Source: Belnapia moabensis DSM 16746 (lineage in GTDB: Bacteria; Pseudomonadota; Alphaproteobacteria; Acetobacterales; Acetobacteraceae). Taken from it: a stretch of 64,000 nucleotides of DNA. Below are positions 34,967 through 52,436 of this stretch, one piece after another; position 1 is the first letter of the stretch; each line of letters starts with the position of its first letter. The stretch covers positions 1-64,000 of the forward strand of contig NZ_JQKB01000024.1 in assembly GCF_000745835.1 (NCBI RefSeq). The letters are read 5' to 3'. The notes below the pieces were generated by a model that was not told the DNA's origin, made no database searches, and saw only the letters and a program-made list of their open reading frames with translations. A program made the translations under genes and the position numbers.

Positions 34967-35005
34967 GCATTTCGCACAACAAACGCATAGACTGTTTTTC
35001 GCATA
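34967..35005 (-). promoter_or_regulatory. TATGCGAAAAA element with two degenerate neighbours
   Basis: Read toward motA, this stretch contains TATGCGAAAAA (35005-34995), then TATGCGTTTG, then TGTGCGAAATG, spaced about 12-16 bases apart. The same core recurs upstream of flgK, motB and fliF. It is in the gap between motA and the divergent transglycosylase and could control either or both. No known sigma-54 or sigma-28 consensus overlaps it. Confidence 0.5.
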
Positions 35006-35031
35006 ACCCTTGTCCCTGGAGACCCCCGGCC

Positions 35032-36030
35032 TTGCCACTCCCCATTCTCCCCCTCTCCTCCGCCGATCTCGCGGCCGGACAGTCGGCCTTGGAGCGCCTT
35101 GCGGGTGGCGCAGCCGGGGCGACCCGCCAACTGGCGGCCCGGGCCGGCAGCACCGGCGGCCAGGTGCTGGGCGCACTGCGCACCGCGGCGTCGGCGACCG
35201 GCGTCAATTTCGAAGTGTTGGCGACCAAGGCTGCCATGGAGAGTGGCTTCCGCCCCACCGCGCAGGCCTCGACCTCTTCCGCGCGTGGCCTGTTCCAGTT
35301 CATCGACCAGACCTGGTTGGATATGGTGCAGCGCCATGGCGCCGAGCACGGTCTCGGCGCCGAAGCCGCGGCCATCCGGCCCGTCGGGGGCGGCCGACTT
35401 TCAGTGGCGGATCCGGCCGAGCGCAGCCGCATCCTGGCTCTCCGGGACAATCCGGAACTGTCGGCCCGGCTGGCTGGGGAGTATTTGAAAGAGGTGTCTG
35501 ACAAGCTGACCCCGGTGCTGGGCCGGCGCCCGGACGCAGCCGAACTGTATATGGGGCATTTTCTCGGCACCGGCGGCGCCACCCAGATGCTGCGCCATCT
35601 GGGCAGCGATCCGGGACGTGCCGCCGCCGAGATCTTGCCGGCGGCCGCCGCCGCCAACCCCAGCATGTTCAAGGGCGCCGATGGTCGCCCCCTGACAGTG
35701 GCCCAGTTCGCCGACCGGATCCGCGAACGTCTGAATAAAACCTATGCTGAGCTGGGCTTGAGCCCGCCAGACGGCGCCATGACCTTCCAGCCCAATACCC
35801 CGGCCGTCATGGGTCAGGAACCTGGCTTGTGGAATAGCTCTACGCCAGTTCGCACGGCCCATGCCCCCGAACGCGCCATGGTGTCGGCCTTGGTGGAGGT
35901 ATTTTCCCGTATGGGCCGCGTGACCATTGGCCAGGGGGCGCGTGGTGCTGAGGAGGCCAAGCCCAACACCGGTCATGGCTCCGGCACAGCTTTGCCGGCT
36001 GCCGTGGTGGCCGCGATGCGGGACCGGTAG
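35032..36030 (+). CDS. Lytic transglycosylase, flagellar-type
   Basis: A 332-residue protein, taking the TTG at 35032 (GGAG upstream). An ATG at 34957 would add 25 residues that overlap the regulatory repeat and look non-coding. The SLT catalytic domain spans about 45-200: VLATKAAMESGFRPTAQAST with the catalytic glutamate, SSARGLFQFIDQTWLDMVQR, and AELYMGHFLGTGGATQML. Lytic transglycosylases of this form cut peptidoglycan for the rod, replacing the muramidase half of FlgJ that many alphaproteobacteria lack. No clear signal peptide is seen; export may be through the flagellar apparatus. A proline-rich tail contains PAVMGQEPGLWNSSTPVR. Confidence 0.85.
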   Translation: MPLPILPLSSADLAAGQSALERLAGGAAGATRQLAARAGSTGGQVLGALRTAASATGVNFEVLATKAAMESGFRPTAQASTSSARGLFQFIDQTWLDMVQRHGAEHGLGAEAAAIRPVGGGRLSVADPAERSRILALRDNPELSARLAGEYLKEVSDKLTPVLGRRPDAAELYMGHFLGTGGATQMLRHLGSDPGRAAAEILPAAAAANPSMFKGADGRPLTVAQFADRIRERLNKTYAELGLSPPDGAMTFQPNTPAVMGQEPGLWNSSTPVRTAHAPERAMVSALVEVFSRMGRVTIGQGARGAEEAKPNTGHGSGTALPAAVVAAMRDR

Positions 36031-36260
36031 GCGGATCGCGCCGGCGCCATCTGAACCCAGCGGGGTAGGGGGCGTATCCCTGCGGCAGGTCCGAGCGAAG
36101 CGGCGTAGCTCTTCAGCGACGCTTCGTGCAGTCTGGTTCCTGGTCTGAGCGGGCGGTTCACCGCCGAACGAGGCTCTCATCTCGGGGCTGTGACACCATA
36201 AGGCGAGATTCTTCGGCATCTACACTGTGGTTTGGTTGTGAGATGCCAAGGAGGGTTCGG

Positions 36261-36791
36261 ATGCGCTGGCCTTGGATGGTGATGCTGGTCGGACTCGCGG
36301 GCGTCGCCGGTAGCGCCTGGTCACAGCGCGGGCCGCAACACCTGCCGCCGATCCCACTGGAGCGCTTGGGTCCTGACAGCTTTGATGCGCGAAGCTTTGA
36401 CGGTCTCGCTCGCCGCGCCGGACCCCGGCCATTGGAACCGCTGTCGCCGGATCGCGCGCCACTGCCAGGAGGCTCGGCCAGATCGCCCGCAGGCTCCGAG
36501 AGCCTGTCCTACCCCTATGCAGCCCCTCCCTATGCTGCACCGCCGCCCTGGCGAGGCGCCGAAGGGTATGCTGGGGCAGTGCCCTACTGGGGTAGCCCAC
36601 ACCCGGGGGCCATTCCACAGGTGCCGGGGGGTTGGGCCGGCGGCGGGGTGCCGCCGCCCTTTCCCCTCCTGCTCCCCGAATGGATGCCCCCGCCGCAGGG
36701 CGAGGGGCCGGCGGAACGCAGGCCTGCCCCTGAACGGCGGCCCATGTTCAGCCAGGGTTGGACCAGAGACGGTTTTGGCGGCCAGCGCTGA
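36261..36791 (+). CDS. Proline-rich secreted protein
   Basis: A 176-residue protein. The ATG at 36261 has a perfect AAGGAGG upstream; a longer frame to 36126 is rejected. The signal peptide is MRWPWMVMLVGLAGVAGSAW with cleavage near residue 21. The rest is proline, glycine and tyrosine rich (SYPYAAPPYAAPPPWRGAEG, GGWAGGGVPPPFP) and probably unstructured. There is no catalytic motif. It is a lineage-specific exported protein inside the flagellar cluster, with unknown role. Confidence 0.65.
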   Translation: MRWPWMVMLVGLAGVAGSAWSQRGPQHLPPIPLERLGPDSFDARSFDGLARRAGPRPLEPLSPDRAPLPGGSARSPAGSESLSYPYAAPPYAAPPPWRGAEGYAGAVPYWGSPHPGAIPQVPGGWAGGGVPPPFPLLLPEWMPPPQGEGPAERRPAPERRPMFSQGWTRDGFGGQR

Positions 36792-37974
36792 GCTGCACCA
36801 GCAACCGCGCCCATGATTCAGCGGTGTTCCGGCCGACCTGTCCAGCCCGCGGTTGGGCAGCATCGCCATGGCCAGCCAGCCGCGCAATGCGGATCCCTGC
36901 CACCGCCCCCGCATCCCACGATGTGGCTCGGATAGCCCCGCTCGCTCGGAAGACAGGATCGATCCTCGCCTGTGTCGTCGCCCCTCCAGCCGGGAGCCCG
37001 GGCGGAGCAGCGAAGCAGCAATCGCACCCTCGCAGTGCCCTGCAACGGCCTTCCCACCGCCAGCAGCGAGCGGCGCGCACGGCCGGCGCCGTGCTTCGAC
37101 AGCCTGACCTGGCTTTGCCCGCTCGGTACGCGGCATGGCGGTCCACCCTACGCACGGCCACGTCGCGCCTTCGCCGGCATTCGCAATAATCTCTCAGGCC
37201 TGGGCACTCGATCCATGCCTCAGTCCGGGACATCCCTGTTCCTTGGAATGCTCCACTCCGCCGTGGATATGGATCCTCCCATTCCAACTCATTCACGGGG
37301 GATACGCGCCAGAGGCGGCACGGGCCGGTATCGATGCCGCCATCGTGCGGTATGCTTCAGACTGGTGAGATTGGGACGCCCCGATCCCAACTCCCCCGGA
37401 TCGACCGCTTATACTCGGTCCCGAACCACACCGCCTGTGTGCAGGTTTCCGGAAAGGGCAGGGGGGCTGGCGGTTCGGCTGCCAGTTAAGCGTGGTGACA
37501 ATCCCCATCCGGGCAGCCTCGCGGTTCTTCGGACCGGCTTCCAAACAGGTCCCAAACGGAAGCTTCGGTGTGGGGACTGACCGCCGCAACCCAAGCTTGC
37601 CGCAGCCGCACGCCTGCCCGACGCCCATGGCGCGCCTCCAGGATGCAAAACCCGATGCGCAGGCAGCAACCCCACCACTCTGAGGCACTCGCGTCATTCC
37701 TTTCGCGCTCAAGTTGAGGCCAATTGTTGGCCAAGCCAGACGTTTCGCTGTGCCGTCGCGGTGGCCGCTTGGCCTCCGTGGGGCGTGACGACTCTGCCGG
37801 CTTGCAAGTCACGTATTCCACTCACCGCAGTTAGGACTGGCGCGGATGCTGTCGTTTCTCCGGACATCCCAACGACCGCGCCGTGTTGGGCGACTCATCG
37901 CTCCGCAATTTGTCTGCCTGTCCCCACCCCCATCGCTGGTCGCCACCGAGACACCGCCAGAGCCTGGCTACGCC
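36792..37974. other. Long stretch without convincing gene
   Basis: About 1.2 kb. Open frames on both strands are present but are low-complexity and lack ribosome sites. The frame of the next gene is open back to 37846, but its first 43 codons have poor third-position G/C and I do not count them as coding. No repeats or RNA features were recognised. Confidence 0.45.
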
Positions 37975-38697
37975 ATGTGGCAGGCGTCCTTCGAGACGTT
38001 CAGCCAGGGCTCCTCGCCTCTCAGCGAGAGCACGCGTCACAAGGTGACCATCACGCGCTGCGCTACGGCGACCGCACAGGCTGCCGATAGCTTCGACGTG
38101 CATGTCGATTGCGCGCCTGAGGCCCAGGATAGCGACCAAATGCGGGTCATGGCAGGCGAGGCGCACCATCGAGGCGGCTATCGTGGCTTGGATTTCGCCA
38201 GCGCCGCACGGCAAGGATTGCAGTTGACTCATGACGCGGTCGCCGGCACCCAAAGCTGGCAGCCCAGCTTCGTATCCGACTTCTGGCGTATGGATAATAC
38301 CTGGCTGCATCTGCACATCGCCCGCTTCAGTATCGCCCGCCCGGATTGCCCATCGGCGCGCGCTGATGGCGCCACCCACGATGTGTGGATTCGGCGGTGG
38401 CGATCCCCCACCACACGGCACGGGTACCTCGGCAGCGCGGCGGTGTATGCCGAGATCGAACTGCGCGCCATTCTCGACGATGGCCCACCGCAGCGACACC
38501 GCCTGACCCGGGCCCTGCAGGATGAGGATGCTGAAGCTGGGCTGCGGGCGCTGACCCAAGAGGCGTTGCAGCTTGTGTTGAGCGACGGAGACGAGCTGCA
38601 GCAGTCCGAGGCCAGCGATCCATTCAAACCCATGCGTCAGGGCAGCACGACGGAGCTGCAACACGCCCATCGCGCAGCCCGGCTGCGCGTTCTCTAG
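37975..38697 (+). CDS. Hypothetical protein, unknown family
   Basis: About 240 residues if the ATG at 37975 is used; an ATG at 37846 (with AGGA upstream) would add 43 residues of non-coding character. A competing minus-strand frame covers the same region but has less protein-like content. Visible text includes FETFSQGSSPLSESTRHKVT, SFVSDFWRMDNTWLHLHIAR, a basic DVWIRRWRSPTTRHGYLGSA, YAEIELRAILDD and a helical tail LRALTQEALQLVLSDGDELQ. It has no signal peptide and no membrane segment. It lies 41 bases before another unrecognised gene in the same direction, so the two may form an operon. Confidence 0.5.
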   Translation: MWQASFETFSQGSSPLSESTRHKVTITRCATATAQAADSFDVHVDCAPEAQDSDQMRVMAGEAHHRGGYRGLDFASAARQGLQLTHDAVAGTQSWQPSFVSDFWRMDNTWLHLHIARFSIARPDCPSARADGATHDVWIRRWRSPTTRHGYLGSAAVYAEIELRAILDDGPPQRHRLTRALQDEDAEAGLRALTQEALQLVLSDGDELQQSEASDPFKPMRQGSTTELQHAHRAARLRVL

Positions 38698-38738
38698 CCG
38701 GCGATGGCCCGACTGGCCGAGTGAAGGAAGACAGCACC

Positions 38739-39500
38739 ATGGCACGCTTTGTGGGCCCGCATTTTGTGACCATCGAGGGCGACCCCGACGGCGGTGGATG
38801 GATCCGCCGCGGTTGTGCCTTTACCACCATGGCGCCGGGTTGGCGGCAGGATCGGACCGGAGCGACCCACTTCCATTCCTGTACCGTGCTCAAGGCCAGC
38901 CCATCCCCAGTTCGGCATGAGGCTTTGGCCTGGCGGACCGAGAGCTTGGCGCTCGGCCGTGGGTTTGAGGACATCATACTCGGTGCGCAAGGCGGTGTGG
39001 CTGCCGCGGAAGCCATGACGGTGGCGGGCGGCACCGAGACGGGCCTCCCATCGGCCATCATCGCGGCGCTCAGCGCGGCCTACCAGCCCCTGAGCGCGGA
39101 GCTCGACCCGCATGGTGAGCCCTTGTTGGGCACGGTCTATGTGGCGCCTGCCTTTGTCGAGATCCGCCGCGAACCGGGTCTGCCACGCGTCTGGGCCTGC
39201 GACTTCCTGAGCCAGGAGCACCGTCAGGCCACGGATGGCCCGACCTGGACGCATCTCCAATCCTGCTTGATCCGCGAACGCCCCGGTCATGCCCGGCACG
39301 GCTTTCTCTGCGAGGTCGAGAGCCTGCCTCCGGCGCTCGTCATGCAGCGCCTCCGCGCGGATTCGGAAACGCTGCCGGAGGCCAACAGCCAGGCCGGATA
39401 CCGGGCGCTCCGCTGGAGCTGCGATAACTTGCAGAGTGCCATTGCCGAATGTCTCCGGACGGCGCTGGCCGAACCCGAAACCAACGCAACCAGGCCGTAG
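38739..39500 (+). CDS. Hypothetical protein, unknown family
   Basis: A 253-residue protein from the ATG at 38739, preceded by AAGGAAG. It is soluble, with two apparent halves that each contain a WTHLQSCL/THFHSCTVLK-like segment: ATHFHSCTVLKASPSPVRHE then LAWRTESLALGRGFEDIILG, and later TWTHLQSCLIRERPGHARHG then FLCEVESLPPALVMQRLRAD. This suggests an internal duplication. Between them is PLLGTVYVAPAFVEIRREPG. No known domain was recognised. It follows the previous hypothetical gene closely and both sit inside the flagellar cluster. Confidence 0.6.
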   Translation: MARFVGPHFVTIEGDPDGGGWIRRGCAFTTMAPGWRQDRTGATHFHSCTVLKASPSPVRHEALAWRTESLALGRGFEDIILGAQGGVAAAEAMTVAGGTETGLPSAIIAALSAAYQPLSAELDPHGEPLLGTVYVAPAFVEIRREPGLPRVWACDFLSQEHRQATDGPTWTHLQSCLIRERPGHARHGFLCEVESLPPALVMQRLRADSETLPEANSQAGYRALRWSCDNLQSAIAECLRTALAEPETNATRP

Positions 39501-39680
39501 GGACCGCCGCACGCGCGGCACCGCCGGTGCTGCGACTTGCGATATCCCTCCGACCTCACCCTCTGGTAGAAGAATAAGCCAGTTGAACTGCCCAGAGCGC
39601 AAGCTGCGCCGGCGGCATTCAGCCTGGCGCTGGCCGCCACTGGTCTGCCGCCGGCCAGCCCTCAGAGTTCGGAGTTTGCC

Positions 39681-40007
39681 ATGTCGCCCACCATTCCGCT
39701 GCTAATGGCCATCCTGGCCCTCCTCGGATGCACGCGTGTGACCTATCTGGATGTCACCGAAGCCCATTACCGGCCAGATCCGGCCTTTGGTGGCCGACGC
39801 GTCGCCTTCGCGCCCTATCCGCCCCCCTATGCGCCGCCGCCGACCATCCTGGTCGAACCGGCCGCGGTGCTGGTGGTGCCGGCACCGCCGGCTGTCCCGC
39901 CCGCCGTCCTGCTACCGCTCGACCTGACATCGCCGCGCCTGCCGCAGCCCCCGGTCCGGGTCGAGCCCCTGCCGCCGATCGCCCAGCCCCCGGTCATACG
40001 TCGGTAA
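39681..40007 (+). CDS. Small proline-rich lipoprotein
   Basis: A 108-residue protein with signal MSPTIPLLMAILALLGC; LLGC is a lipobox with the lipidated cysteine at 17. The tail is more than a quarter proline, with FAPYPPPYAPPPTILVEPAA and repeated VVPAPPAVPP, likely an extended wall-spanning chain. It resembles the proline-rich secreted protein at 36261 in composition but not in sequence. It is convergent with flgI. Confidence 0.6.
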   Translation: MSPTIPLLMAILALLGCTRVTYLDVTEAHYRPDPAFGGRRVAFAPYPPPYAPPPTILVEPAAVLVVPAPPAVPPAVLLPLDLTSPRLPQPPVRVEPLPPIAQPPVIRR

Positions 40008-40087
40008 GGGTAACGCCGCGACCCACCCGGCCGCTGTGGAGCCGGCTGCGGGGCTGGCGCCCGAGCCGGCCTCGCACTGGCCAGGGT

Positions 40088-41215
40088 TCAGATAAACGAC
40101 AACTCGGCGTGCAAGGCACCCGCCGCGCGCAGCGCGTTCAGCACCGAAATCAGATCCCGCGGCGCCAAACCCAGGGCATTTAGGCCGTCCACCAAGCTCT
40201 GCAGGGTATTGGCCCGTGGCAGGGTGGCCAGCCGTCGTCCGCGCTGGTCGTCCACCTCCACCTGGGTCCGGGGAACCACCACCGTCTCGCCATTGGAAAA
40301 GGCGCCAGGCTGGCTCACGACCGGTGTTTCGGTGATGCGGATGACGAGGTTGCCATGGGTGATGGCCACCGGCTCAATCCGCACCTGGGCCCCGACCACG
40401 ATGGTTCCGGTGCGCTCATCAACCACCACCCGAGCCGGGGTGTCCGGACGGACCTGCAGCGATTCCATCTGGGCCACCAGCGCCGGCAGGTGATCTCGCA
40501 GCGACGGCGGCACCTGGAGTTCGACCGTGGCCAGATCCAGCGCCTTGGCTGAACTCGGGCCAAACCGGGCATTGAGCACCTCCTCAATCCGGATGGCGGT
40601 GGTGAAATCCGGCGCACGCAGCGCTAGGCGGATGCTGCTCTGATTGCGCTGCGACTGCTGCACCTCGCGTTCCACAATTCCACCCCCCGGCACGCGGCCG
40701 GTCGTGGTCACGCCGCTGGTGATCGACTGGGCCTGGCCTGCGGCGGCAAAGCCGCCCACCACCACGGGACCCTGGGCGACGGCATAGGCTTCGCCATCAG
40801 CGCCCATAAGGGGCGTCGCAATCAGGGTGCCGCCATTGAGGCTGCGGGCGTCACCCAGGGAGGAGACCATCACATCGAGGGGCGTCCCTTGGCGGGCAAA
40901 GGCCGGCAAGGTCGCAATGACCATGACGGCGGCGGTGTTGCGCGTTTGCAGCCGCTGATCCGCGACATTGACGCCCATCCGCTCGAGCATGGCGGTGAGG
41001 CTCTGCTGCGTGAAGGGCACATTGCGCAGCTGGTCGCCGGTGCTCTGCAAGCCAATCACCAGCCCATAGCCGACCAGCTGGTTGTTGCGCACCCCTTCGA
41101 TCGTGACAATGTCCTTGAGGCGCACCTGCGCTATCGCCGTGCCAGGCGCTACAATGCAAGCAGCCGCGGCGAAGCACGTCGCCGCGGCGAGCGTACGGGC
41201 CCAATGAGGCGCCAT
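40088..41215 (-). CDS. flgI: Flagellar P-ring protein FlgI
   Basis: About 375 residues from the ATG at 41215, which has GAGGAGA upstream; a longer frame to 41266 overlaps the previous gene. The signal peptide ends near GTAIA, and the mature protein starts VRLKDIVTIEGVRNNQLVGY, followed by GLVIGLQSTGDQL, FTQQSLTAMLERMGVN, NTAAVMVIATLPAF and GGTLIATPLMGADGEAYAVA. The close NTLQSLVDGLNALGLAPRDL then ISVLNALRAAGALHAEL is the standard FlgI end. FlgI forms the periplasmic P ring with FlgA as chaperone. Confidence 0.96.
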   Translation of the reverse strand: MAPHWARTLAAATCFAAAACIVAPGTAIAQVRLKDIVTIEGVRNNQLVGYGLVIGLQSTGDQLRNVPFTQQSLTAMLERMGVNVADQRLQTRNTAAVMVIATLPAFARQGTPLDVMVSSLGDARSLNGGTLIATPLMGADGEAYAVAQGPVVVGGFAAAGQAQSITSGVTTTGRVPGGGIVEREVQQSQRNQSSIRLALRAPDFTTAIRIEEVLNARFGPSSAKALDLATVELQVPPSLRDHLPALVAQMESLQVRPDTPARVVVDERTGTIVVGAQVRIEPVAITHGNLVIRITETPVVSQPGAFSNGETVVVPRTQVEVDDQRGRRLATLPRANTLQSLVDGLNALGLAPRDLISVLNALRAAGALHAELSFI

Positions 41216-41225
41216 GCTGATCTCC

Positions 41226-41597
41226 TCAGGCCCGGTAGCGCAGGCCGATATCCGCGAGGACATCATGCGGCATCGCCTGGGGGTCTAGCCCGATGAGACC
41301 ACGCAGCCCGTGCAAGGCTTGAGCATGCGCCGCTTCGAGTGCCAAGCAGCTCGCAGCAGGATCGCCACTGGCAGCAGAGTTGGCAATCTGACTGCGAACT
41401 GTGGCGGCATTGACCCACATCAGGGCGGCGGCTCGCCGCGCCTTCGGCGTCGCCAGCATGAAACCCGTGGCACAGTCCTCAAGTGCGCAGCCCAGAGCTT
41501 CGGCCATGGCGCTGTAGGTTGCGATATCCTCCGCCTCAAGGGCAATCGGGATATAGGCCTCAGCGGAGGCTGAGGTCATGAGACCAGTGTCAGTCAC
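41226..41597 (-). CDS. Hypothetical helical protein between flgL and flgI
   Basis: A 123-residue protein with a GTG start preceded by GGAG. It is almost wholly helical: EAEDIATYSAMAEALGCALE, FMLATPKARRAAALMWVNAA, SCLALEAAHAQALHGLRGLI. It has no signal peptide and no membrane helix. Its place in the operon between the hook-filament junction gene and the P-ring gene suggests a cytoplasmic chaperone or regulator (for example FlgN- or FlaF-like), but the FlaF signature is not seen. It ends ten bases before flgI. Confidence 0.6.
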   Translation of the reverse strand: MTDTGLMTSASAEAYIPIALEAEDIATYSAMAEALGCALEDCATGFMLATPKARRAAALMWVNAATVRSQIANSAASGDPAASCLALEAAHAQALHGLRGLIGLDPQAMPHDVLADIGLRYRA

Positions 41598-41659
41598 GTC
41601 GGATTCTCCGTGTGAGAACTCAAAAACCCTGCTGATAAGAATGATCGGCGGGGCCGCCC

Positions 41660-42727: not shown

Positions 42728-42748
42728 GGGGTATCTCCTCGACCAGAC

Positions 42749-44257
42749 TCAGCGCGCGTTCAGCGTGTTCAGTGTGTCCAGCATCTTAGCGGCTGCCTGG
42801 ATCACTTGGGCGGAGGCGCTGTAGGTCTGCTGCACCAGCAGCAGGCGCTGCATTTCCTCGTCGACATTGACGCCGGTCTTGTTGGAGAGATCCTGCCCGG
42901 CCTGCGTCGCCAGCCGGGTCCGGGTGTCCGCGCGGACCAGCCAGCCACTATTGTCACTCTGAATGCGCCCCAGTGACTGCGCGGCGGCGTTGGCAATCGT
43001 GAGCTGGCCCGGCAGTCCCGTTGAGGTGCCATAGGCTTGGTTCTGGTCCATGGCGTTGAGAGCGGCCAGGATGATGCTGTTGTCAGACGCATTCCCTGGT
43101 GTGGCGTCGTCATTCGCGCCATCGCGGATCCGTCGCGGCTCATTGCCAGGCTGGTTCGGATCAACTTTCGGGTTGAGCGCCAGGGTTCGGGCAAAGCCGT
43201 TATACGTCGCGGGGTCGGCCAGGTTGACCACCACAAAGCTGGGCGCACCAACATTAGTGGCGCCAACCCTGGTAAACAGGCCGGCCAGTTTTGCCCCGCT
43301 GCCATCAACGGCCGCAACCCTGGCAATCGGGTCAGCGGTTTGGAAGCCGGTGGCCAGATTGGCCGCCATCTGGTCCAGCATATCACCGTATTGCGGCAGT
43401 TCCTTGTCGCGGAGTTGCAGGCCCGCGGCAATCGATCCTGTCTGCGTGCTGCGCAGGACGGCACCGTCGACCATCACCGCGGAAAGGCCACCGCTGGGCC
43501 CGCTTGCTGGTATCAGCGCACTATGCGTGAAGGTCAGACGATGGACAGTGCCGGTGTCCAGCAGTGTCGTGCCCTGGTCGGTCCGTAGGATCAACTGGCC
43601 TGGCCCGTTGCCAAAAACCCTGACCGGCACATTGGCAGCGATACTGTCAATCAGGGTGGCCCGCCGATCTTCGAATTCGGCCGTCGACTCGCCGCGGGCT
43701 GCCGCACGCGCATAATCTCGTTCAACCCGGGCGAGCTCGTCCAGCGCGGTATTGACGGCGTCGACATCCTGCGCGACGCCCAGATCGGCGTTGATACGGG
43801 CGTCGGAAACGGCGCGATCGAGGATGTGGAACGTATCGACCAGGCCGGATGCCGCTGAGATCGCCTGGGTCTGGGTGACGGCATCAGCGGGCGTGCTGGA
43901 CAGGCTGGTCATGGCAGCCTGAAACTTGCCCAGCATCGACGACAGCGAGCGCGGGTCCGAAGGTTGGCCAGCGATGCGGGTCAGGGCCCCCAGGATGTCG
44001 GTCATGCGGGTGCCATAGGCCTTGTCGCCATTGGCCGAGCGAGCCACGATCTCGAGCAGGCTGTCGCCAGCGCGCTGGGTGACCCCCAAAGCGACGCCGT
44101 TGCCTTCGCGGCCTGCCATGTTTTCCGAGCGCGGCAGGTCACGTCGCACATAGCCGGGCGTGCTGGCATTGGCGATATTATTGGCGATGATCTGCGCCTG
44201 GGCCTGCTCGGCAGCCAGCGACGACAGGGCATTCAACAGGGCGCCTTGGATGGTCAT
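42749..44257 (-). CDS. flgK: Hook-filament junction protein FlgK
   Basis: A 502-residue hook-associated protein 1. The amino end reads ALLNALSSLAAEQAQAQIIA NNIANASTPGYVRRDL, the rod/hook family signature; the carboxy end has GVNVDEEMQRLLLVQQTYSA then SAQVIQAAAKMLDTLNTL, the standard FlgK end. The middle has the expected EFEDRRATLIDSIAAN. Length is typical. A TATGCGAAAAA element is 37 bases upstream of the start, inside the flgE-flgK gap. Confidence 0.95.
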   Translation of the reverse strand: MTIQGALLNALSSLAAEQAQAQIIANNIANASTPGYVRRDLPRSENMAGREGNGVALGVTQRAGDSLLEIVARSANGDKAYGTRMTDILGALTRIAGQPSDPRSLSSMLGKFQAAMTSLSSTPADAVTQTQAISAASGLVDTFHILDRAVSDARINADLGVAQDVDAVNTALDELARVERDYARAAARGESTAEFEDRRATLIDSIAANVPVRVFGNGPGQLILRTDQGTTLLDTGTVHRLTFTHSALIPASGPSGGLSAVMVDGAVLRSTQTGSIAAGLQLRDKELPQYGDMLDQMAANLATGFQTADPIARVAAVDGSGAKLAGLFTRVGATNVGAPSFVVVNLADPATYNGFARTLALNPKVDPNQPGNEPRRIRDGANDDATPGNASDNSIILAALNAMDQNQAYGTSTGLPGQLTIANAAAQSLGRIQSDNSGWLVRADTRTRLATQAGQDLSNKTGVNVDEEMQRLLLVQQTYSASAQVIQAAAKMLDTLNTLNAR

Positions 44258-44293
44258 GGTCGAAATCCTTGCAGGCGCCGAAGGCTACCTTAA

Positions 44294-44304
44294 TTTTTCG
44301 CATA
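44294..44304 (-). promoter_or_regulatory. TATGCGAAAAA element upstream of flgK
   Basis: Read toward flgK the sequence is TATGCGAAAAA followed by TTAAGG. It is 37 bases upstream of the flgK start in the 113-base gap after flgE. It is identical to the elements near motA and fliF, suggesting that flgK has its own promoter or operator within the operon. Confidence 0.5.
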
Positions 44305-44370
44305 GAACGAGAGGAGCGTGTGCCTCACTCTCGTCCTAGCGATCAACGGTGGTTTCGGCGGCGACCGATC

Positions 44371-45708: not shown

Positions 45709-45797
45709 TGGAGATCCTGGCGCTAGGGTTATAGGGATGGACTATACAAAAGCCGGCGCAGGCGTTCTGCAGCACCGGCGCAGGGGATGGCAGGGCG

Positions 45798-46727
45798 TTA
45801 CCGCCGCGATGACGAGGCGCCGCTCTGAGCGGCCGATGCGTTGCGCGCAGCGGCGACCGCCTCCGAGCGCAATACGGTGATGACGATCCGGCGATTGCGG
45901 GGATCGGTCAGCTGGTCTGCGAAGAGGGGCTCGGAGGCGGCCTTGCCCTCCACCCGGAACACGCGACCAGGCAGCAAGCCGGACCGCTCCAACACCCGGC
46001 GCGAGTTGTTGGCCCGATCGGTGGACAGTTCCCAGTTGCCGTAGCTGCCGCGTCCCAGCGGCTGAGCATCGGTATGCCCCGCCACCACCACCTCATTGGG
46101 CACGCTGGCGAGGACGCTGCCGACCACACCCAGCATGCGAGAGAGACGGGGGGTTGGTTCGGCCGAGGCCGGCAGAAACATCGGCGCCCCTTCGCGGTCG
46201 AACAGCTGCAGTCGCAACCCCTCTGGCGTCATCTCCACCAGGATGCTGGACGCAAAACTGTGCAGCTCGCCCTGATCGGTTAGCATCTGCCGCTCGAACT
46301 CGGCCTTCATGGCGTCCAGCCGCTGGCGCTCGATGCGGTCGCGCGCCGCTGCGCCTGACCCATCGGCCGTTTGCGCATTGGCTTCGCGGGCGGCGGCGCC
46401 GCTATCCTCGTTTTGCGCTACCCCACCCTCGGCCGATTCCGGACTTTCTTGGCGGGACGCGCCAGCCGTCATCACCGATCGCCCGCCCTCCAGCATGCCG
46501 GTCCCCGCGGGCATATCCACCGAGTTGGAGGAGGTAAAGAATTTCGCAATGCCCTCCTTCTGCACCTCCGTGGTGCTCGAGAGCAGCCACATCACCAGAA
46601 AGAACGCCATCATCGCCGTCACGAAGTCAGCGTAGGCGATCTTCCACTGGCCACCATGCTCGTCATCATGCGCAGCATGCGCACGTTTCACGATGATCTG
46701 GCGTTTGTGCTTGTTATCGGAACTCAT
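45798..46727 (-). CDS. motB: Motor stator protein MotB
   Basis: A 309-residue peptidoglycan-anchored stator subunit. A cytoplasmic basic leader is followed by a single membrane helix at about 28-50 with WKIAYADFVTAMMAFFLVMW; the aspartate at 34 is the proton-carrying residue. The linker (about 60-140) is glutamate/alanine rich and long. The OmpA-like domain has PNEVVVAGHTDAQPLGRGSY then NWELSTDRANNSRRVLERSG and DPRNRRIVITVL. Only MotB, not the partner MotA, is encoded here. Confidence 0.95.
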   Translation of the reverse strand: MSSDNKHKRQIIVKRAHAAHDDEHGGQWKIAYADFVTAMMAFFLVMWLLSSTTEVQKEGIAKFFTSSNSVDMPAGTGMLEGGRSVMTAGASRQESPESAEGGVAQNEDSGAAAREANAQTADGSGAAARDRIERQRLDAMKAEFERQMLTDQGELHSFASSILVEMTPEGLRLQLFDREGAPMFLPASAEPTPRLSRMLGVVGSVLASVPNEVVVAGHTDAQPLGRGSYGNWELSTDRANNSRRVLERSGLLPGRVFRVEGKAASEPLFADQLTDPRNRRIVITVLRSEAVAAARNASAAQSGASSSRR

Positions 46728-46773
46728 GCGGTCAGGACGCCAACCAAGGGTTGATCATCCTATACCCCAATCA

Positions 46774-46784
46774 TTTTTCGCATT
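46774..46784 (-). promoter_or_regulatory. AATGCGAAAAA element upstream of motB
   Basis: Read toward motB the sequence is AATGCGAAAAA, one mismatch from the motA, flgK and fliF copies. It begins at the last base of the upstream gene's stop codon and ends 47 bases before the motB start, so it occupies the whole start of the intergenic gap. A nearby CAACC-AAG-GGTTG inverted repeat (46741-46753) lies between it and the gene. Confidence 0.5.
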
Positions 46785-47473
46785 CAAGTGCGGCGCTCAT
46801 GCTGGGCGTGCCTCAATGTCAAACATCCCTCCAGCCCCAGCCGCAGGAGCGCCGCCGCAAAACACTCGGTCACATCGAAAGCTAGCGGTTTCGGCAGGGG
46901 ATGCTGGGTTTCCATCACAGCGTCGAGCCGCAGGCCTTCAAGGCGGCCGCGAATCTCAATCCGCCCGGTGACGGGAAGTCGCAGCCGCACGGCAAAGCCG
47001 CCACGATCAGGGCCGCGGCGGTCGGGCCGCCAAAACAGCTCGATCCACTCGGCCCGACCATCCACAGCCAGCAGAGGAACGCGGCGCCCGGCCCAGGCCA
47101 CGCTCTCCCCCAGCGCGGCCGGGGGCTGCGGGACCGCATCCAGCAAACTGGTCAACGCAGCATCCTTGAGGCCCAGCTTGGCTGCCAGCTGGCGCAACCG
47201 CTCTCGCCCCAGCCATCGCCGTGCATCCGGGCGCAGCACGGCCAGGGCAAAGGCCAGGACAAAAGGTCCTGACAGGCTGGGCAGCAGGCTGTCGGCACCC
47301 CGGAGGGGCAAGACCGGAGCGGCAGCGCCGGTTCGGTCGGCCGCCCGGCCTGCTGCATAGCCAGCGGCGATCTCGCGCCCCAAGCGTGACGCCATGCCGC
47401 CGCCCGGGGCCGGATCGGCTGCCATCGTGCCAACCTCACCGGGAGCGTGCGACAGCAAACGACTGGCTAACAT
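46784..47473 (-). CDS. Possible FliK-like hook-length/flagellar protein
   Basis: About 229 residues from the ATG at 47473, seven bases after fliG; a longer frame into fliG is rejected. The amino part is glycine/alanine rich. Then come helices (RLRQLAAKLGLKDAALTSLL) and a carboxy half of strands: WIELFWRPDRRG, GFAVRLRLPVTGRIEIRGRL, EGLRLDAVMETQHPLPKPL, followed by a helix FAAALLRLGLEGCL. The strand pattern (rlrLp-tG-ieirG, LrLdavmet) resembles the carboxy domain of FliK, but it lacks the long proline/glutamine-rich front. It could be a fliK relative or an unrelated motor protein. Confidence 0.5.
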   Translation of the reverse strand: MLASRLLSHAPGEVGTMAADPAPGGGMASRLGREIAAGYAAGRAADRTGAAAPVLPLRGADSLLPSLSGPFVLAFALAVLRPDARRWLGRERLRQLAAKLGLKDAALTSLLDAVPQPPAALGESVAWAGRRVPLLAVDGRAEWIELFWRPDRRGPDRGGFAVRLRLPVTGRIEIRGRLEGLRLDAVMETQHPLPKPLAFDVTECFAAALLRLGLEGCLTLRHAQHERRT

Positions 47474-47480
47474 GACCCAC

Positions 47481-48518
47481 TCAGCCCTCGGCTTCATCCT
47501 CGTCGAGGATGAAGATCCGCCCCTCATCGGCGAGACGCTTGGCGATGGTGATGATCTCACCCTGCGCATCTTCGACGGTCTTCCGGCGCTGGGCCGGCAT
47601 GCTGTCGATCTCGTCGCGCAGCATCGTCGCCGCCCGTTCCGACATACTGCCGAGGAACATGTCCCGCAGCTCCTGGCTCGCGCCGCTCAGCGCAACCTGC
47701 AGCTTGTCGGTCGGGCATTCGGCAACCAGGGTGCCGAAGGTGCTCCGATCAACCCGGACCAGATCGTCAAAGGTGAACATGATCCGGCGGATTCGCGATG
47801 CCGTTTGCGGCTCCCGCGCCTCGATATGCGTCATCAGGCGCTCGAGCAGGCTCTTGTCGGTGCGGTTCAGGATTTCCGCGACAATCTGCGAGCTATCGCG
47901 CTCATAGGAGCGGGCCAGATTGGTGATGAATTCACGCTGCAGGGTCTGCTCGATGTCGTTCAACACGTGCTTTTGGATGCTGTCCATACGCACCATGCGC
48001 AGCACGATTTCATCGACCGAAGCTTGTGGCAGCAGCGCCAGCACCCGCGCGGCATGCTGGGCCGGCAGTTTCGTCAGGACCACGGCCGCCGTCTGCGCCA
48101 ATTCTGTCTTGAGATAGGTCGCCAAGACCTCCGGCGAGATATTGGCGAGCTTCTCCCACATCGTCTTGCCCTCGGGACCACGGATCTCATCCATGATCTC
48201 GTTGACCTTCTCATTGGGAAGCAGGCGCCGCAGCAGGCGCTCGGTGCTCTCCGCCGTGCCGATCACGCTACCCGTGCGGCCCACCTCACTGCGGAAGCGG
48301 GTGATGACCCGTTCCACCTGTTCGATGTCCACCTTGCCGAGCAACGACATGGAGCGGCTGACCCGGCGGATCTCCTCCTCTTCCAGGCGCGCGAAGATGC
48401 TTTGCGCTCGCTGCTCGTCCAGCGCCATGAACAACACGGCCACATCCGCCAGCGGGTCCGTCGGCCCGGCGTCACCAGATGTCGTTCGCAGATTGCGGCG
48501 TGGTTCGGGAGCCTTCAT
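47481..48518 (-). CDS. fliG: Rotor switch protein FliG
   Basis: A 345-residue switch-complex protein that binds FliF at its amino end and contacts MotA at its carboxy end. The middle domain has EKLANISPEVLATYLKTELA then QTAAVVLTKLPAQHAARVLA (the usual EHPQ motif is degenerate here, with QTAA). The carboxy domain has IRRIMFTFDDLVRVDRSTFG, the charged helix ELRDMFLGSMSERAATMLRD and MPAQRRKTVEDAQGEIITIA. It lies after fliP and an unknown gene, not directly after fliF as is usual. Confidence 0.94.
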   Translation of the reverse strand: MKAPEPRRNLRTTSGDAGPTDPLADVAVLFMALDEQRAQSIFARLEEEEIRRVSRSMSLLGKVDIEQVERVITRFRSEVGRTGSVIGTAESTERLLRRLLPNEKVNEIMDEIRGPEGKTMWEKLANISPEVLATYLKTELAQTAAVVLTKLPAQHAARVLALLPQASVDEIVLRMVRMDSIQKHVLNDIEQTLQREFITNLARSYERDSSQIVAEILNRTDKSLLERLMTHIEAREPQTASRIRRIMFTFDDLVRVDRSTFGTLVAECPTDKLQVALSGASQELRDMFLGSMSERAATMLRDEIDSMPAQRRKTVEDAQGEIITIAKRLADEGRIFILDEDEAEG

Positions 48519-48865
48519 GGGCTGGGATTCCTGGCAGCGTCGAGAGGCGCGGTGGCGGGGGCAGGACAGTGCAGCAGCGGCAGCAGGATGGCTGCCAGCG
48601 CGGCACAGACCTCAGGTGGGATGGGCGCTGTCGCGGCCACACGAGCGAGTTGCTCAGGCAGATCGGCGCCCAGACTCTGGAGGCGCTGCTCGTCGGCCAT
48701 GGCCTGGACCTGCAGGGCCAGCGGATCGCTCGGGCGTGCCAGGCTGGATCCTGCAGTGAGGGACAGCGCCTCCTGGGTGGCCAGCCAACGTAGGGTTCCG
48801 GCCAACCGCCGCCGACGTTGGGTGCGCGGGCCGCCCAGCGCCGTGGGTTGCACCAGGGCGGTCAT
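48515..48865 (-). CDS. Hypothetical protein between fliP and fliG
   Basis: A 116-residue protein whose start overlaps the fliP stop and whose stop overlaps the fliG start, each by four bases. A basic front (RTQRRRRLAGTLRWLATQEA) is followed by helices (DPLALQVQAMADEQRLQSLG, PPEVCAALAAILLPLLHC). No signal peptide and only a marginal hydrophobic segment. It is not FliO-like (FliO has a clear membrane helix). The tight coupling on both sides argues that it is a real flagellar gene. Confidence 0.6.
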   Translation of the reverse strand: MTALVQPTALGGPRTQRRRRLAGTLRWLATQEALSLTAGSSLARPSDPLALQVQAMADEQRLQSLGADLPEQLARVAATAPIPPEVCAALAAILLPLLHCPAPATAPLDAARNPSP

Positions 48866-49728
48866 AGCGAAAACCCACGCACCAGCGAGCCGGCGACCAA
48901 GGCCCAGCCGTCGATCAGCACGAAGAAAATCAGCTTGAAGGGAAGGCTGATGGCCACGGGCGACAACATCATCATGCCCATGCCCATCAGAATGGCACTG
49001 ACGGCGATATCAATCGCCAGGAAGGGCAAAAACAACAAGAACCCGATCTGGAAGGCCTTGGCCAGCTCCGAGGTCAGGAACGCTGCCGCCATGATATGCA
49101 GGGGAACCTGCGACCGGCTCTCGCGGGGCAGGGGGATGGCAGAGCCGGCAGCGGGCGAGGGGCTCGCCGGTGCGGTGCGGGCGGAGGACCCTGCAGCATC
49201 GCCCGCCTCGGCACTGGGCCGCCATTGGGCGATTTCAATAAACAGGGCCAGATCGCGCTCCCGCACATTGGCCTCCATAAAGCTTCGGAACGGCCGCAGC
49301 GCCCGTTCGGCGGCCTGCTCCTCCGCAATCGCGCCATCCATCAGCGGGCGCGCCGCATCTTGCCAGACGGTCTCCAGCACGGGCGCCATCACAAAGGCCG
49401 ACAGAAACAAGGACAGGCTGACGATCACCGTGTTGGGGGGCGACTGCTGCAGCCCCAGCGCAGTCCGCAACATGGAGAGCACCACCACGATGCGGGTAAA
49501 GGCTGTTGCCACGACCAAAATACCTGGTGCGATCGCCAGCAGCGTCGTCCCTACAACCAGGGCAACCAGGTTGGTCGTCAGGCTCTGTCCGCCACTGGCC
49601 GTCGCCGCGGCGCCACTGGCACCAACATTGATCGACACGCTTTGTGCCAAGGCCAGATCAGGCAGCGCCAGCAGCACGCCCATTGCGCCCAGGCCGGGGA
49701 TCCACCACCGCAGAGGAAAGCTTGGCAT
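48862..49728 (-). CDS. fliP: Flagellar export gate protein FliP
   Basis: A 288-residue export-gate subunit. After a signal-like hydrophobic front come LVALVVGTTLLAIAPGILVV then ATAFTRIVVVLSMLRTALGL QQSPPNTVIVSLSLFLSAFV, the classic FliP blocks, then PLHIMAAAFLTSELAKAFQI and GFLLFLPFLAIDIAVSAILM GMGMMMLSPVAISLPFKL. A serine/alanine-rich insertion (about residues 172-195) lies in the large periplasmic loop. fliQ and fliR are about 12 kb away. FliP pairs with FliR to form the gate. Confidence 0.96.
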   Translation of the reverse strand: MPSFPLRWWIPGLGAMGVLLALPDLALAQSVSINVGASGAAATASGGQSLTTNLVALVVGTTLLAIAPGILVVATAFTRIVVVLSMLRTALGLQQSPPNTVIVSLSLFLSAFVMAPVLETVWQDAARPLMDGAIAEEQAAERALRPFRSFMEANVRERDLALFIEIAQWRPSAEAGDAAGSSARTAPASPSPAAGSAIPLPRESRSQVPLHIMAAAFLTSELAKAFQIGFLLFLPFLAIDIAVSAILMGMGMMMLSPVAISLPFKLIFFVLIDGWALVAGSLVRGFSL

Positions 49729-49754
49729 TCTGCCGACTTTCGTAATGTGAAGCG

Positions 49755-50039
49755 CTAGACGGACGACGAGACAATCTCAGTGATGGAGATCGACAGCCGA
49801 CCATCATCCGTGATCTGGATCTCGCCACGCGCAATCAGGCGTTCATTGGCGAGGAGATCGACCGGCTCTCCGACCTTCTTGTCGAATTCGATGACCGAAC
49901 CTCGGCTGAGATTGAACAGGGCCGCCATCGGCAAGCGCTTATTGCCCAGCACAACCTGAACATTGACGGGAATGTCCATAATCCGCGGCTTGCGGTCGCC
50001 GCTGGACGATGGCTCGGAGGCGAAGGGATCACTGGTCAT
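49755..50039 (-). CDS. fliN: C-ring protein FliN
   Basis: A 94-residue SpoA-domain protein. The core is IPVNVQVVLGNKRLPMAALF-like (the text is MDIPVNVQVVLGNKRLPMAA), then NLSRGSVIEFDKKVGEPVDL, ANERLIARGEIQITDDGRLS and a final ISITEIV. FliN forms the base of the switch complex with FliM. Its start overlaps the fliH stop by four bases. Confidence 0.95.
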   Translation of the reverse strand: MTSDPFASEPSSSGDRKPRIMDIPVNVQVVLGNKRLPMAALFNLSRGSVIEFDKKVGEPVDLLANERLIARGEIQITDDGRLSISITEIVSSSV

Positions 50040-50725
50040 GGCGTCATTTCCTGCTGAGGACGAATCTCGGTCGGCATCGGACCAAGAATGGCGAGCGCAC
50101 GCGCCGCCATCGTGCGTGGATCCATGAGCAAGCCCCCGCCGGTCCAGGCGGCGGTGGCCGCTCCAGGCGGCATGGCGGGATCAGGCTCCAACAGCAGACG
50201 CTCCGCCTCGCCCGCCGCGAGGCCGGGCAGCGGTCCCGCCGCCGGGAATCCACCGGGCTCGAGCAGGGCCAGCGTGTCGGGATGCGCCCGCACCACGATG
50301 CGGTCGGCCGTGCGCTGGGTCATGGCTTCGGCGATCAGCGCCAGGAGATTGGCGCCGGCCTCGTGCTCCAGCAGCGCCGGCACCACCAGGGTCAGGACGG
50401 CGGCGAGAGCCGCACGCATCTCCCGATCCAGGGCGGCGCGGTCCTGGCTCCGCCCGGCCGCCAAGTCCACGAGAGCCTGCTCGGCGGCCATCGCGCCATG
50501 GCGGCGCTGCTCCGCAAAACCCGCCTCCGCCTCGGCCTGACCCTCCAGGCGTCCCGTTGCCGCGCCCTCGAGCCGACCGCGGCTCAGGCCCTCGGCCAGG
50601 CCGCGGGCATGGCCGTCGGCAAAGGCGGCATCGCGCAGCTGGGCCTCGGCGGCGATGCGGGCCGCCACCATTCCGTCGGCCCCACTGAGGGCCTCGAGCG
50701 AGGGTGGGAGGAATGGACGCATCAT
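50036..50725 (-). CDS. fliH: Export ATPase regulator FliH
   Basis: A 229-residue protein that carries the FliI ATPase to the C ring. The front has ADGHARGLAEGLSRGRLEGA then ATGRLEGQAEAEAGFAEQRR; the glycine-spaced GxxxG-type repeat is the typical FliH pattern. The carboxy end DRIVVRAHPDTLALLEP, LLLEPDPAMPPGAATAAW and GGLLMDPRTM matches the conserved V-ATPase E-like domain. Coupled with fliF upstream and fliN downstream. Its partner FliI is not in the window. Confidence 0.9.
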   Translation of the reverse strand: MMRPFLPPSLEALSGADGMVAARIAAEAQLRDAAFADGHARGLAEGLSRGRLEGAATGRLEGQAEAEAGFAEQRRHGAMAAEQALVDLAAGRSQDRAALDREMRAALAAVLTLVVPALLEHEAGANLLALIAEAMTQRTADRIVVRAHPDTLALLEPGGFPAAGPLPGLAAGEAERLLLEPDPAMPPGAATAAWTGGGLLMDPRTMAARALAILGPMPTEIRPQQEMTP

Positions 50726-52284
50726 CCCGGCGTCCCCTCCTGGATCCAGGCCCGGACCACCGACAAGGCCTCGTCGGGACGTTCGTCAATGAGTTCGTTG
50801 AGCGCGTTCAGCGAGGAGAGGCGGATCTGCAGGTCAGGACCGATATTGGCAATCGCTTCCTGCAGCGCCTCGGACTGGGCCGACGTTGCCGCTGCCGCGC
50901 GGGCCGCGGCCGCAACCCGGCGGCGGTGCAGCAGGACACCGCCACCGGCCGTCAGCACCACCACCAGCCCCAGGCCCAGCTGCCACCAGGCGATGCCAGT
51001 GGCAGCAACCTCGCCCCCGGCCAGGGTGCCCAGGGGGTCCTCGCTCAGGAAGCGCATGCCATCGACCGTGACCCGGTCACCGCGCTGTTCGTTAAAGCCG
51101 ACGGCCGAGCGCACCAGGGCGGTAAAGCGCTCCAGCTCAGCGGCAGAGCGTGGCTGGATGACGCCATTCGCATCGGGCGCGCCATCCACCACCACGGCGA
51201 CGCTCAGCCGCCGGACCGCGCCGGGCTCCCGCGTGGTTTCCTCAGTGCGCGAGGAGATCTCGTAATTGATGGTCTCGTTGTTGCGCTGGGCCGTGGCATT
51301 GGTCCGCTGATTGTTGGGCGCCACCTGCTGGTTCGGCAGGTTCTGCCCCACCGTGACCGGCTGCTGCCCCCGCGAATCCTCGTTTGTCTCCTGCTCCGTC
51401 GAGGTCTGACGGCTCCGCTCCACCTGACCGAGTGGGTCGTATTTCTCCTCGCGGGCCACCACACGCGCGGCGTCAATCTCCACGGCGGCAATGGCGCGCA
51501 CCTTGCCATGGCCGACAATCGGCTCCAGCAGATCCAGGACCGCCTTTTGGTAAACCGCCTCTTGGGCGGCGCGCAATTCACCCACCCGGCCTGCAATCGC
51601 GCCGGTCCCGCCATCCGCAGCCAGGACGATCCCCGTGGGATCAACGACGGACACGCCCTCTTGGCGCAGCCGCGGCACGGCACCGGCCACCAACAAGCGA
51701 ATCGCCGCGGCCTGGGCACTGCCAAGCCGCTGGCCGGCCTGAGTGGTCACCGTCACCGAGGCCGTGGGTGGCGGCGCATCCCGCGAAAAACTCTCGCGCT
51801 CCGGCAGGACGATATGCACCCGGGCGGTGCGCACACCGTGCATGGTGATAATGGTGCGGGCGAGCTCGCCCTCGAGGGCTCGCAGCCGCTGCACCCGCTG
51901 CATAAAGGAGGTCATCTGCATGGGGCTGGCCTGGTCCAGCAGCTCGTAACCGGCGCCGGTCTGCCGCGGCAGACCCTCGGAGGCCAGCTGCATGCGCAGC
52001 CGCGGCACCTGGTCGAGCGGCACCAGAATCGTGCCATCACCGCGGGCATCCAGGGGAATTTTGAGCTCCTCCAGCCGCGCTACAATGCGCCCGGCATCGG
52101 CCGGCTCGAGCCCTGAATAGAGCAGGCCATTGGGACTTTGCGGCGCCCGTGCCACCAACACGACGCCCACCAGCGCCGCCAGGGCGACCCCGCTCAGCGC
52201 AGCAAGTTTCGCAGATCCCAGGCCGGCCAAGCTGGCCCCAAGGCTCCGCAACTGGAATGCGGGTTCGAGAGTCTTGGTTTCCAT
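50722..52284 (-). CDS. fliF: MS-ring protein FliF
   Basis: A 520-residue ring protein. Membrane helices at about 27-45 (AALSGVALAALVGVVLVARA) and 440-460. The secretin-like domains have LYSGLEPADAGRIVARLEEL, LPRQTGAGYELLDQASPMQM, RALEGELARTIITMHGVRTA RVHIVLPERESF and the carboxy end with FliG-binding helix (LRSLNALNELIDERPDEALS-like; read as SSLNALNELIDERPDEALSV). It starts the fliF-fliH-fliN-fliP run; fliG, usually next, is displaced. Confidence 0.95.
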   Translation of the reverse strand: METKTLEPAFQLRSLGASLAGLGSAKLAALSGVALAALVGVVLVARAPQSPNGLLYSGLEPADAGRIVARLEELKIPLDARGDGTILVPLDQVPRLRMQLASEGLPRQTGAGYELLDQASPMQMTSFMQRVQRLRALEGELARTIITMHGVRTARVHIVLPERESFSRDAPPPTASVTVTTQAGQRLGSAQAAAIRLLVAGAVPRLRQEGVSVVDPTGIVLAADGGTGAIAGRVGELRAAQEAVYQKAVLDLLEPIVGHGKVRAIAAVEIDAARVVAREEKYDPLGQVERSRQTSTEQETNEDSRGQQPVTVGQNLPNQQVAPNNQRTNATAQRNNETINYEISSRTEETTREPGAVRRLSVAVVVDGAPDANGVIQPRSAAELERFTALVRSAVGFNEQRGDRVTVDGMRFLSEDPLGTLAGGEVAATGIAWWQLGLGLVVVLTAGGGVLLHRRRVAAAARAAAATSAQSEALQEAIANIGPDLQIRLSSLNALNELIDERPDEALSVVRAWIQEGTPG

Positions 52285-52356
52285 CGACGTTCTGTCGTTC
52301 CGTCCTAGTGCCGACCAACCCGTCCGGCGCGCCTCAACGAGATACCGTCTTCTGCG

Positions 52357-52436
52357 TTTTTCGCATAGCGCGAAAACCGACGGTAGCGTATATATTTCGC
52401 ATTCTACGCTACCGCGTCCTATTCGTATGCGAGAGA
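52357..52436. promoter_or_regulatory. Cluster of TATGCGAAA-type elements in the fliF/fliL gap
   Basis: Toward fliF: TATGCGAAAAA at 52367-52357 (73 bases upstream of its start) and AATGCGAAATA at 52403-52393. Toward fliL: TATGCGAGAGA at 52426-52436. The first copy is also part of an inverted repeat, TTTTTCGC-ATAG-CGCGAAAA (52357-52376). The 158-base gap must hold promoters for both directions, so these are candidate shared control sites. Confidence 0.5.

Follow-up and report, generated by a model that had tools for sequence, protein, structure and literature searches.

Flagellar gene clusters are large and costly, and one may ask how a transferred cluster comes to be switched on in the recipient. 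The question is raised by a stretch of DNA from Belnapia moabensis DSM 16746, the genome under study (6.73 Mb in 282 contigs), in which several flagellar genes are preceded by the same short sequence. The window, i.e. the whole stretch that was analysed, covers the opening 64 kb of contig C24, which is 88.5 kb long. An earlier note had described an 11-base element, present exactly at three sites and with one mismatch at 46774-46784, always on the minus strand and before minus-strand flagellar genes, and all four copies are there. We propose that this element, with a consensus of approximately tWATGCGAAAAAt in the direction of the gene, is probably the site of a dedicated factor under which the operons of a second set of flagellar genes form one regulon. 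Because it lies before the operons of this system and is rare elsewhere in the genome, it looks like the system's private control signal. What one would look for in a dedicated regulon was found: the element stands before operons, is rare inside genes and is conserved in relatives.

The strict form, WATGCGAAAWA, occurs seven times in the genome, where about 1.2 copies are expected from the trinucleotide composition of the window; six are in the window and one is on contig C58 (binomial P ~5e-12). The word ATGCGAAA is found 62 times versus 26 for the same word written backwards, and 14 of the 62 are on C24 (P ~8e-14). The surroundings of 57 of them were read with gene calls from our own simple caller, leaving out those on C130, C138, C154, C164 and C167. 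Outside C24 and C58, 41 copies were read, 27 inside predicted genes and 14 outside. On C24 past the window, copies outside genes are found at flgB/fliI, before a flagellin gene, before a rod-binding gene and at two more places, and one further copy is in the start of flgB. A transposase gene (DDE_Tnp_ISAZ013, L009:3726-4694) is present in the final 8.5 kb of the contig. Within the window, eight matches with at most two mismatches were counted against a mean of 2.8 in shuffled sequence, and none of 100 shuffles reached eight, in line with the earlier suggestion that the copies are unlikely to have arisen by chance.

By sequence comparison, the system in the window is the second flagellar system of the genome. 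The other FliF of this organism (C28:63203) is 45% identical to that of the window, and the FliF proteins of the seven congeners searched are 43-48% identical to it. The FliF of the window has close relatives (67-73%) encoded at 14 loci (L078-L091) in Pseudoroseomonas, Paracraurococcus, Roseomonas and an Acetobacteraceae strain, and the FliF proteins encoded on plasmids of P. cervicalis, R. marmotae and Rhodovastum are 70%, 76% and 58% identical to it, respectively. FlhA and the candidate proteins discussed below were compared across 299 genomes sampled from the family. Nine of them encode an FlhA at least 72% identical to that of the window (the FlhA carriers); the next is at most 52% identical among the matches listed.

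Enrichment in relatives was assessed in 18 second-system loci (420 kb, with L008 overlapping the window by 1 kb) and in 25 primary-type flagellar loci (463 kb), our pick among the remaining loci of the FliF survey, with expected counts from a second-order Markov model. In the second-system loci ATGCGAAA was observed 91 times with 7.8 expected, and in the primary-type loci twice with 7.6 expected; the reversed word was absent from both. The number per second-system locus ranges from 0 (L081) to 15, and the form TTGCGAAA occurs 25 times with 4.5 expected. On 50-kb stretches of pL11-D and p1318-2, judged by annotation alone, 21 of 24 copies of ATGCGAAA and 21 of 28 of TGCGAAAA are intergenic; intergenic DNA makes up 8,167 of these 100,000 bases (8%). 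Matches to WATGCGAAAAWY fall on second-system contigs in G183 (6/6), G287 (7/7), G225 (4/4), G310 (8/8), G129 (6/8) and G229 (4/5) and are spread over contigs in the non-carriers G121 and G254, used for comparison. The Rhodovastum cluster, in what we take to be G164, has a diverged element, TTTGCGAAA at several operon heads and TTCTTGCGAAAAAT before minC, and both of its WATGCGAAAAWY matches are off the contig of the cluster. Neither equal frequency elsewhere nor a lack of conservation in relatives, the two results that the earlier note had named as refuting its proposal, was seen: the word is concentrated in the window and the rest of C24, and on the second-system contigs of carriers, and it is conserved before the same genes in relatives. 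That the copies are a functionless repeat family or chance runs of A is hardly credible. Genome G081 does carry 91 copies of the searched word over many contigs, those listed being AATGCGAAAAAY, with four on C240 spaced 104 bp apart, but these clearly belong to an unrelated repeat family. The flanks vary among the accessory-system sites, and what is kept is the word together with its position ahead of each gene; the reversed-word controls give zero or near zero, and the copies are non-random relative to genes, both in the per-gene sites and in their intergenic placement.

The place of the element before genes was examined with a weight matrix derived from 108 sites, its threshold set at 9 out of 30.4, searched from -250 to +30 in both orientations; the background at this threshold is 2.35 hits per 10 kb in primary-type loci. 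Divergent gene pairs share one region, which was counted for both genes; identical regions were removed and related species kept. A site is present upstream of all orthologs of MotA (13/13), the transglycosylase gene (13/13), MotB (14/14), FlgB (10/10), FliI (10/10), flagellin (9/9), the rod-binding protein (9/9), a gene for a 146-residue protein (9/9), hyp21353 (7/7), a protease (9/9) and a gene named MetRS (8/8). It is found for bactofilin in 8/9, FliF in 15/17, FliL in 14/17, a ParB-like protein in 10/11, FlgK in 10/14, hyp17587 in 4/8 and FlgH in 1/3. By contrast, none was found in the 138 regions of 13 other families (FlgI, FlgL, FlgE, FliG, FliP, FliM, FlhA, FlhB, FlbT, DUF1217, FlgG, FlgA and TPR), each of which lies downstream of a same-strand gene in pL11-D. 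Counted as a plain word, TGCGAAAA has 111 occurrences over the 138 regions from 12 head families, against none in the 138 internal regions.

The sites are also arranged with a direction. In divergent pairs, the element is directed at motA in 13/13 regions and at the transglycosylase gene in 0/13, at the rod-binding gene in 9/9 and at the 146-residue gene in 0/9, and at hyp21353 in 7/7 and the protease gene in 2/9; at flgB it is directed in 10/10. Its distance to the gene is 49-59 bp for motB in 14/14, 56-62 bp for cheY in 8/9, and 101-103 bp for motA in 8/13, with 90-124 bp in the others. In the aggregate, the 108 sites form a one-sided motif, with a strong tWATGCGAAAAAt, a weaker AT-rich signal to about +22 and little upstream of -4. 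A palindromic site was considered and rejected: TTTTCGC-GCTAT-GCGAAAA at fliF does give the copy there an inverted partner, but the aggregate has none.

Such a one-sided and mostly directional element might itself be part of the core promoter, e.g. the -35 region of an alternative sigma factor, with no separate regulator. The flagellin and rod-binding promoters would suit this, with a predicted -10-like hexamer at 24-25 bp, near the usual -35/-10 spacing. In other families the best predicted -10-like hexamer is offset by ~11 (motA), 12 (bactofilin), 19 (motB), 21 (hyp21353) or 36 bp (flgB, with a poor score). The offset is fairly constant inside a gene family and different among families, which, on these predicted hexamers, looks too variable for a core promoter and favours a regulator site. 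In addition, the (incomplete) gene tables of pL11-D and p1318-2 hold no sigma factor, a chromosomal one not having been searched for. We regard the core-promoter explanation as improbable. The earlier note had left the choice between the site of a regulator and a non-canonical promoter; as a proposal from sequence this is upheld, with the predicted spacing pointing to the former.

Known promoter classes do not account for the element as far as the tested patterns go, as had been stated. CtrA pairs (TTAA-N6-8-TTAA) were not found in the 138 head regions or in the 18 second-system loci, nor were pairs at N5-N11. Sigma-54 sites (TGGC-N8/9-TTGC, two patterns) and sigma-28 sites (TAAA-N15-GCCGATAA) were likewise absent from the 138 head regions. 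Primary-type loci hold nine TTAA pairs at N6-8, yet also three at N5 and four at N10, and CtrA control of these loci is therefore only suggested.

The element extends beyond flagellar genes proper. Scored at the stricter matrix threshold of 12, it is present at minC in 10/10 regions, at cheY in 9/9 distinct regions (from ten rows, two of them one Rhodovastum stretch; the own 37%-identical receiver gene was below the cut-off) and at h121 in 8/10. The seventh WATGCGAAAWA copy of the genome adjoins minC on C58, in the order helix-turn-helix gene, short gene, minD, minC, h228 and h121, which is the order on two flagellar plasmids. The min genes and the helix-turn-helix gene are seen on C58 (L010:3983-6024) and on flagellar plasmids (L210, L213 and L201), and the short C58 gene is MinE-like by eye, without a Pfam match. 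No counterpart of the plasmid initiator gene that the plasmids have next to this block was found in the stretch of C58 that was read. C58 and C24 may be parts of a single plasmid. The location of the second system on plasmids in relatives, the element before minC and cheY, and the absence of an excess of ATGCGAAA from primary-type loci all go beyond the earlier note.

The most likely explanation is that the element is read by a transcription factor of its own, probably an activator, which switches on the second-system operons as one regulon. The protein would bind the element beside or over the -35 region, binding would result in activation, and the reader would be encoded together with the second flagellar system. 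Three candidates were considered. A helix-turn-helix protein would be the first choice among them, if a doubtful one; the ParB-like protein is less likely, and the 146-residue protein less likely still. Something else altogether carries somewhat more weight than any single one of the three. The helix-turn-helix protein has 74-90 residues, adjoins minC-minD and is present at 53% identity or more in seven of the nine FlhA carriers (other genomes at most 51% among the matches listed). The own and P. cervicalis proteins match Pfam HTH_3 (4e-9 and 9e-9, respectively); the Rhodovastum copy matches another helix-turn-helix model weakly, below the cut-off. The ParB-like protein (L008:13238-14989; two similar halves by eye) is the sole candidate found in all nine carriers, at 74% or more in eight and 54% in G164, and the own and P. 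cervicalis proteins are 77% identical. It is also present, at 78%, in G258, which has no window-type FlhA and where its gene, on a 3.3-kb contig, has a strong site directly upstream. Its naming comes from the annotation of one record and weak matches to ParB-like PHROGs (best E 0.012), without a Pfam match; it is related to PHROG 5931 (E 2.5e-79). Near seven distant copies (41-51%) in five genomes, some of them carriers, the element is present only sporadically, in weak or remote form. No other cluster gene was found in the seven stretches around them, the partial copies in G043 and G275 being left out. The 146-residue protein has a strong match in seven of the nine carriers and none elsewhere in the 299 genomes, with G063 and G015 marginal. 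Its N-terminal half is basic and could, by eye, be a helix-turn-helix, its C-terminal half is strongly conserved, and no credible relative was found in Pfam, NCBIfam, PHROGs or solved structures, nor any in viral contigs. In the leader of its gene (L161, L162, L164, L165 and L166), two hairpin-like stretches are seen by eye between the element and the start codon, one around AGAAGGAG and the other GC-rich, possibly serving post-transcriptional control. Of the three candidates, Rhodovastum holds only the helix-turn-helix and ParB-like proteins.

Alternatively, a regulator encoded on the chromosome and common to the family could read the element. This would fit the finding that, besides the ParB-like protein, no cluster-encoded candidate was found in all carriers. 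We consider it unlikely, since within most carrier genomes the motif clusters on the accessory system, and the primary-type flagellar loci show no excess of ATGCGAAA.

Several observations weigh against a dedicated factor and its regulon. The matrix was trained on the same loci in which sites were later counted; these loci are related, and the site counts are therefore not independent; and the lists of head and internal families for the TGCGAAAA count were made after the per-gene result. No site is present in 4/14 FlgK and 4/8 hyp17587 orthologs, L081 has no ATGCGAAA at all, and primary-type loci are likewise enriched in the TTGCGAAA form (12 versus 4.7 expected). At fliI, copies directed at the gene are above threshold in 7/10 regions, mostly weak, the own one strong. 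The strong site at the own minC is reversed, and the own h121 has none. In G289, only 2 of 11 exact matches are on contigs with cluster genes found, the other nine being on contigs without a cluster gene in the stretch fetched (some contigs were read in part), and the region upstream of motA has no strong site. As to the readers, the search for the helix-turn-helix protein gave nothing in G229 and a match at 49% in G289. The 146-residue protein was not found in G289 nor, despite the diverged element, in Rhodovastum (G164), where its apparent co-variation with the motif breaks down, and it was rejected as a universal reader; a weak tblastn match in the latter (E 0.45) was rejected because it has a far longer open frame and lacks the conserved pattern. 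Palindromes are the usual targets of helix-turn-helix dimers and of ParB proteins, and neither of these binding modes fits a one-sided site. The strong copies in G289 without a known cluster gene found (C17, C43, C135, C234, C615, C633 and C634), some of them upstream of predicted genes, perhaps reflect an enlarged regulon.

A more far-reaching proposal, which we put forward tentatively and with more doubt than belief, is that of a mobile flagellar system of Acetobacteraceae with its own circuit. A reader new to flagella (146-residue, helix-turn-helix or ParB-like) would replace CtrA and drive the flagella together with CheY and a plasmid MinCD. The accessory system, minC and cheY share the strict element, a form that the primary-type loci of relatives are without. 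If the proposal is true, the plasmid would bring not only the machine but also control of its placement and of division. It would offer a concrete example, open to test, of a mobile flagellar system that brings its own control, in a class for which CtrA explains much of the flagellar regulation. No account of such a flagellar element was found among the open-access papers listed on the element's sequence and on flagellar genes in Acetobacteraceae, Pseudoroseomonas, Roseomonas and Rhodovastum atsumiense.

The copies in the window and the genes that they precede are listed in the table. The degenerate copies described earlier beside motA and fliF and facing fliL are present, those at motA being TATGCGTTT (34989-34981) and GTGCGAAA (34977-34970). 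Measured from the start codon used, the A of ATGCGAAA in the distal motA site is 115 bp upstream, and motA orthologs have a second TGCGAAAT-like copy at comparable spacing. The description of all copies as intergenic holds for most of them; the motB copy overlaps the final base of the stop codon of the preceding open reading frame, and a copy that had been missed is inside a coding sequence. The codons of the latter are at the same place in L158 (38380) and L091 (3064), making three species, and the ATG CGA AAA copy was not found in the other scanned loci with the pattern used. In 11 window genes CGA makes up 21 of 343 Arg codons, a minor share, yet the coding copy is kept in the three species. 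A perfect 9-bp inverted repeat, GGTAGCGTA / TACGCTACC, surrounds the distal fliF site at 52382-52413. A further copy with two mismatches (56266-56276), at the start of a predicted gene, is probably due to chance. A protein with MHYT, PAS, GGDEF and EAL domains (cyclic-di-GMP turnover) is encoded at 56229-59018 within the flagellar region, and an EAL gene is also present on pL11-D. Pfam also supports flgE, flgI, fliG, fliP, flhA, flhB and others in the surroundings.

Table. Copies of the element in the window and the flagellar genes beside them.
Feature	Sequence	Position	Strand	Basis or remark
motA		33996..34889	-	MotA_N, MotA_ExbB (Pfam)
Copy within coding sequence downstream of motA	AATGCGAAAAA	33750..33760	-	In frame as ATG CGA AAA
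Proximal motA site	TTGTGCGAAATG	34968..34979	-	~28 bp downstream of distal site
Distal motA site	TATGCGAAAAA	34995..35005	-	Sequence match; site in 13/13 MotA upstream regions
flgK		42749..44257	-	Pfam
flgK site	TATGCGAAAAA	44294..44304	-	Site in 10/14 FlgK upstream regions
motB		45798..46727	-	Pfam
motB site	AATGCGAAAAA	46774..46784	-	Site in 14/14 MotB upstream regions
fliF of second flagellar system		50722..52284	-	Pfam, homology
Proximal fliF site	TATGCGAAAAA	52357..52367	-	Within TTTTCGC-GCTAT-GCGAAAA (52376-52358)
Distal fliF site	AATGCGAAATA	52393..52403	-	Within 9-bp inverted repeat 52413-52405 / 52390-52382
Degenerate copy	TATGCGAGAGA	52426..52436	+	Faces fliL
fliL		52443..52958	+	Pfam; start set by alignment to P. 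cervicalis protein

Flagellar genes in Alphaproteobacteria are controlled by sigma-54/FlbD, sigma-28 and Rem/VisNR, with shared cis elements or regulators. The system described here differs from the sigma-54 and sigma-28 types in that their patterns were not found in its head regions. Motility encoded on plasmids is reportedly, from its title, the subject of a study in Rhodobacterales (PMC12843797). This order has several types of flagellar gene cluster (PMC11974857), a likeness to the present case in that several types, some of them on plasmids, are found within one alphaproteobacterial order. The motility of P. inhibens is described as dependent on the CtrA phosphorelay (PMC11974857), whereas the element shared here is a different one and CtrA-like pairs were not found.

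A different parallel is offered by VirB of the Shigella virulence plasmid, where a protein-export machine forms a plasmid-borne regulon (PMC10770331). Its site virS is a parS-like palindrome that may act from more than 1 kb. The presence of a ParB-like gene alongside makes the parallel attractive, and the element could by analogy be the loading site of the ParB-like protein, which would spread along the DNA and relieve silencing as VirB does at Shigella virulence genes. Its occurrence in all nine FlhA carriers, its conservation between the own genome and P. cervicalis, and the sites upstream of 10/11 of its orthologs (many weak, strong in G258) are consistent with this. However, the parallel fails on palindromy: the element is one-sided and close to genes, with distance and direction largely kept, and the seven distant copies sit without cluster genes found. 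We judge such loading to be quite improbable.

The closest architecture is that of fla2 in R. sphaeroides, also a second system, with divergent fliF-fliL and flgB-fliI pairs and one type of regulator site near the promoters (PMC6180460). There, the promoters are CtrA-controlled through TTAA-N6/7-TTAA sites, in contrast to the head regions and second-system loci here. On its sequence and placement, the element is a variant of a known theme, a putative dedicated cis element of a flagellar regulon with three candidate readers.

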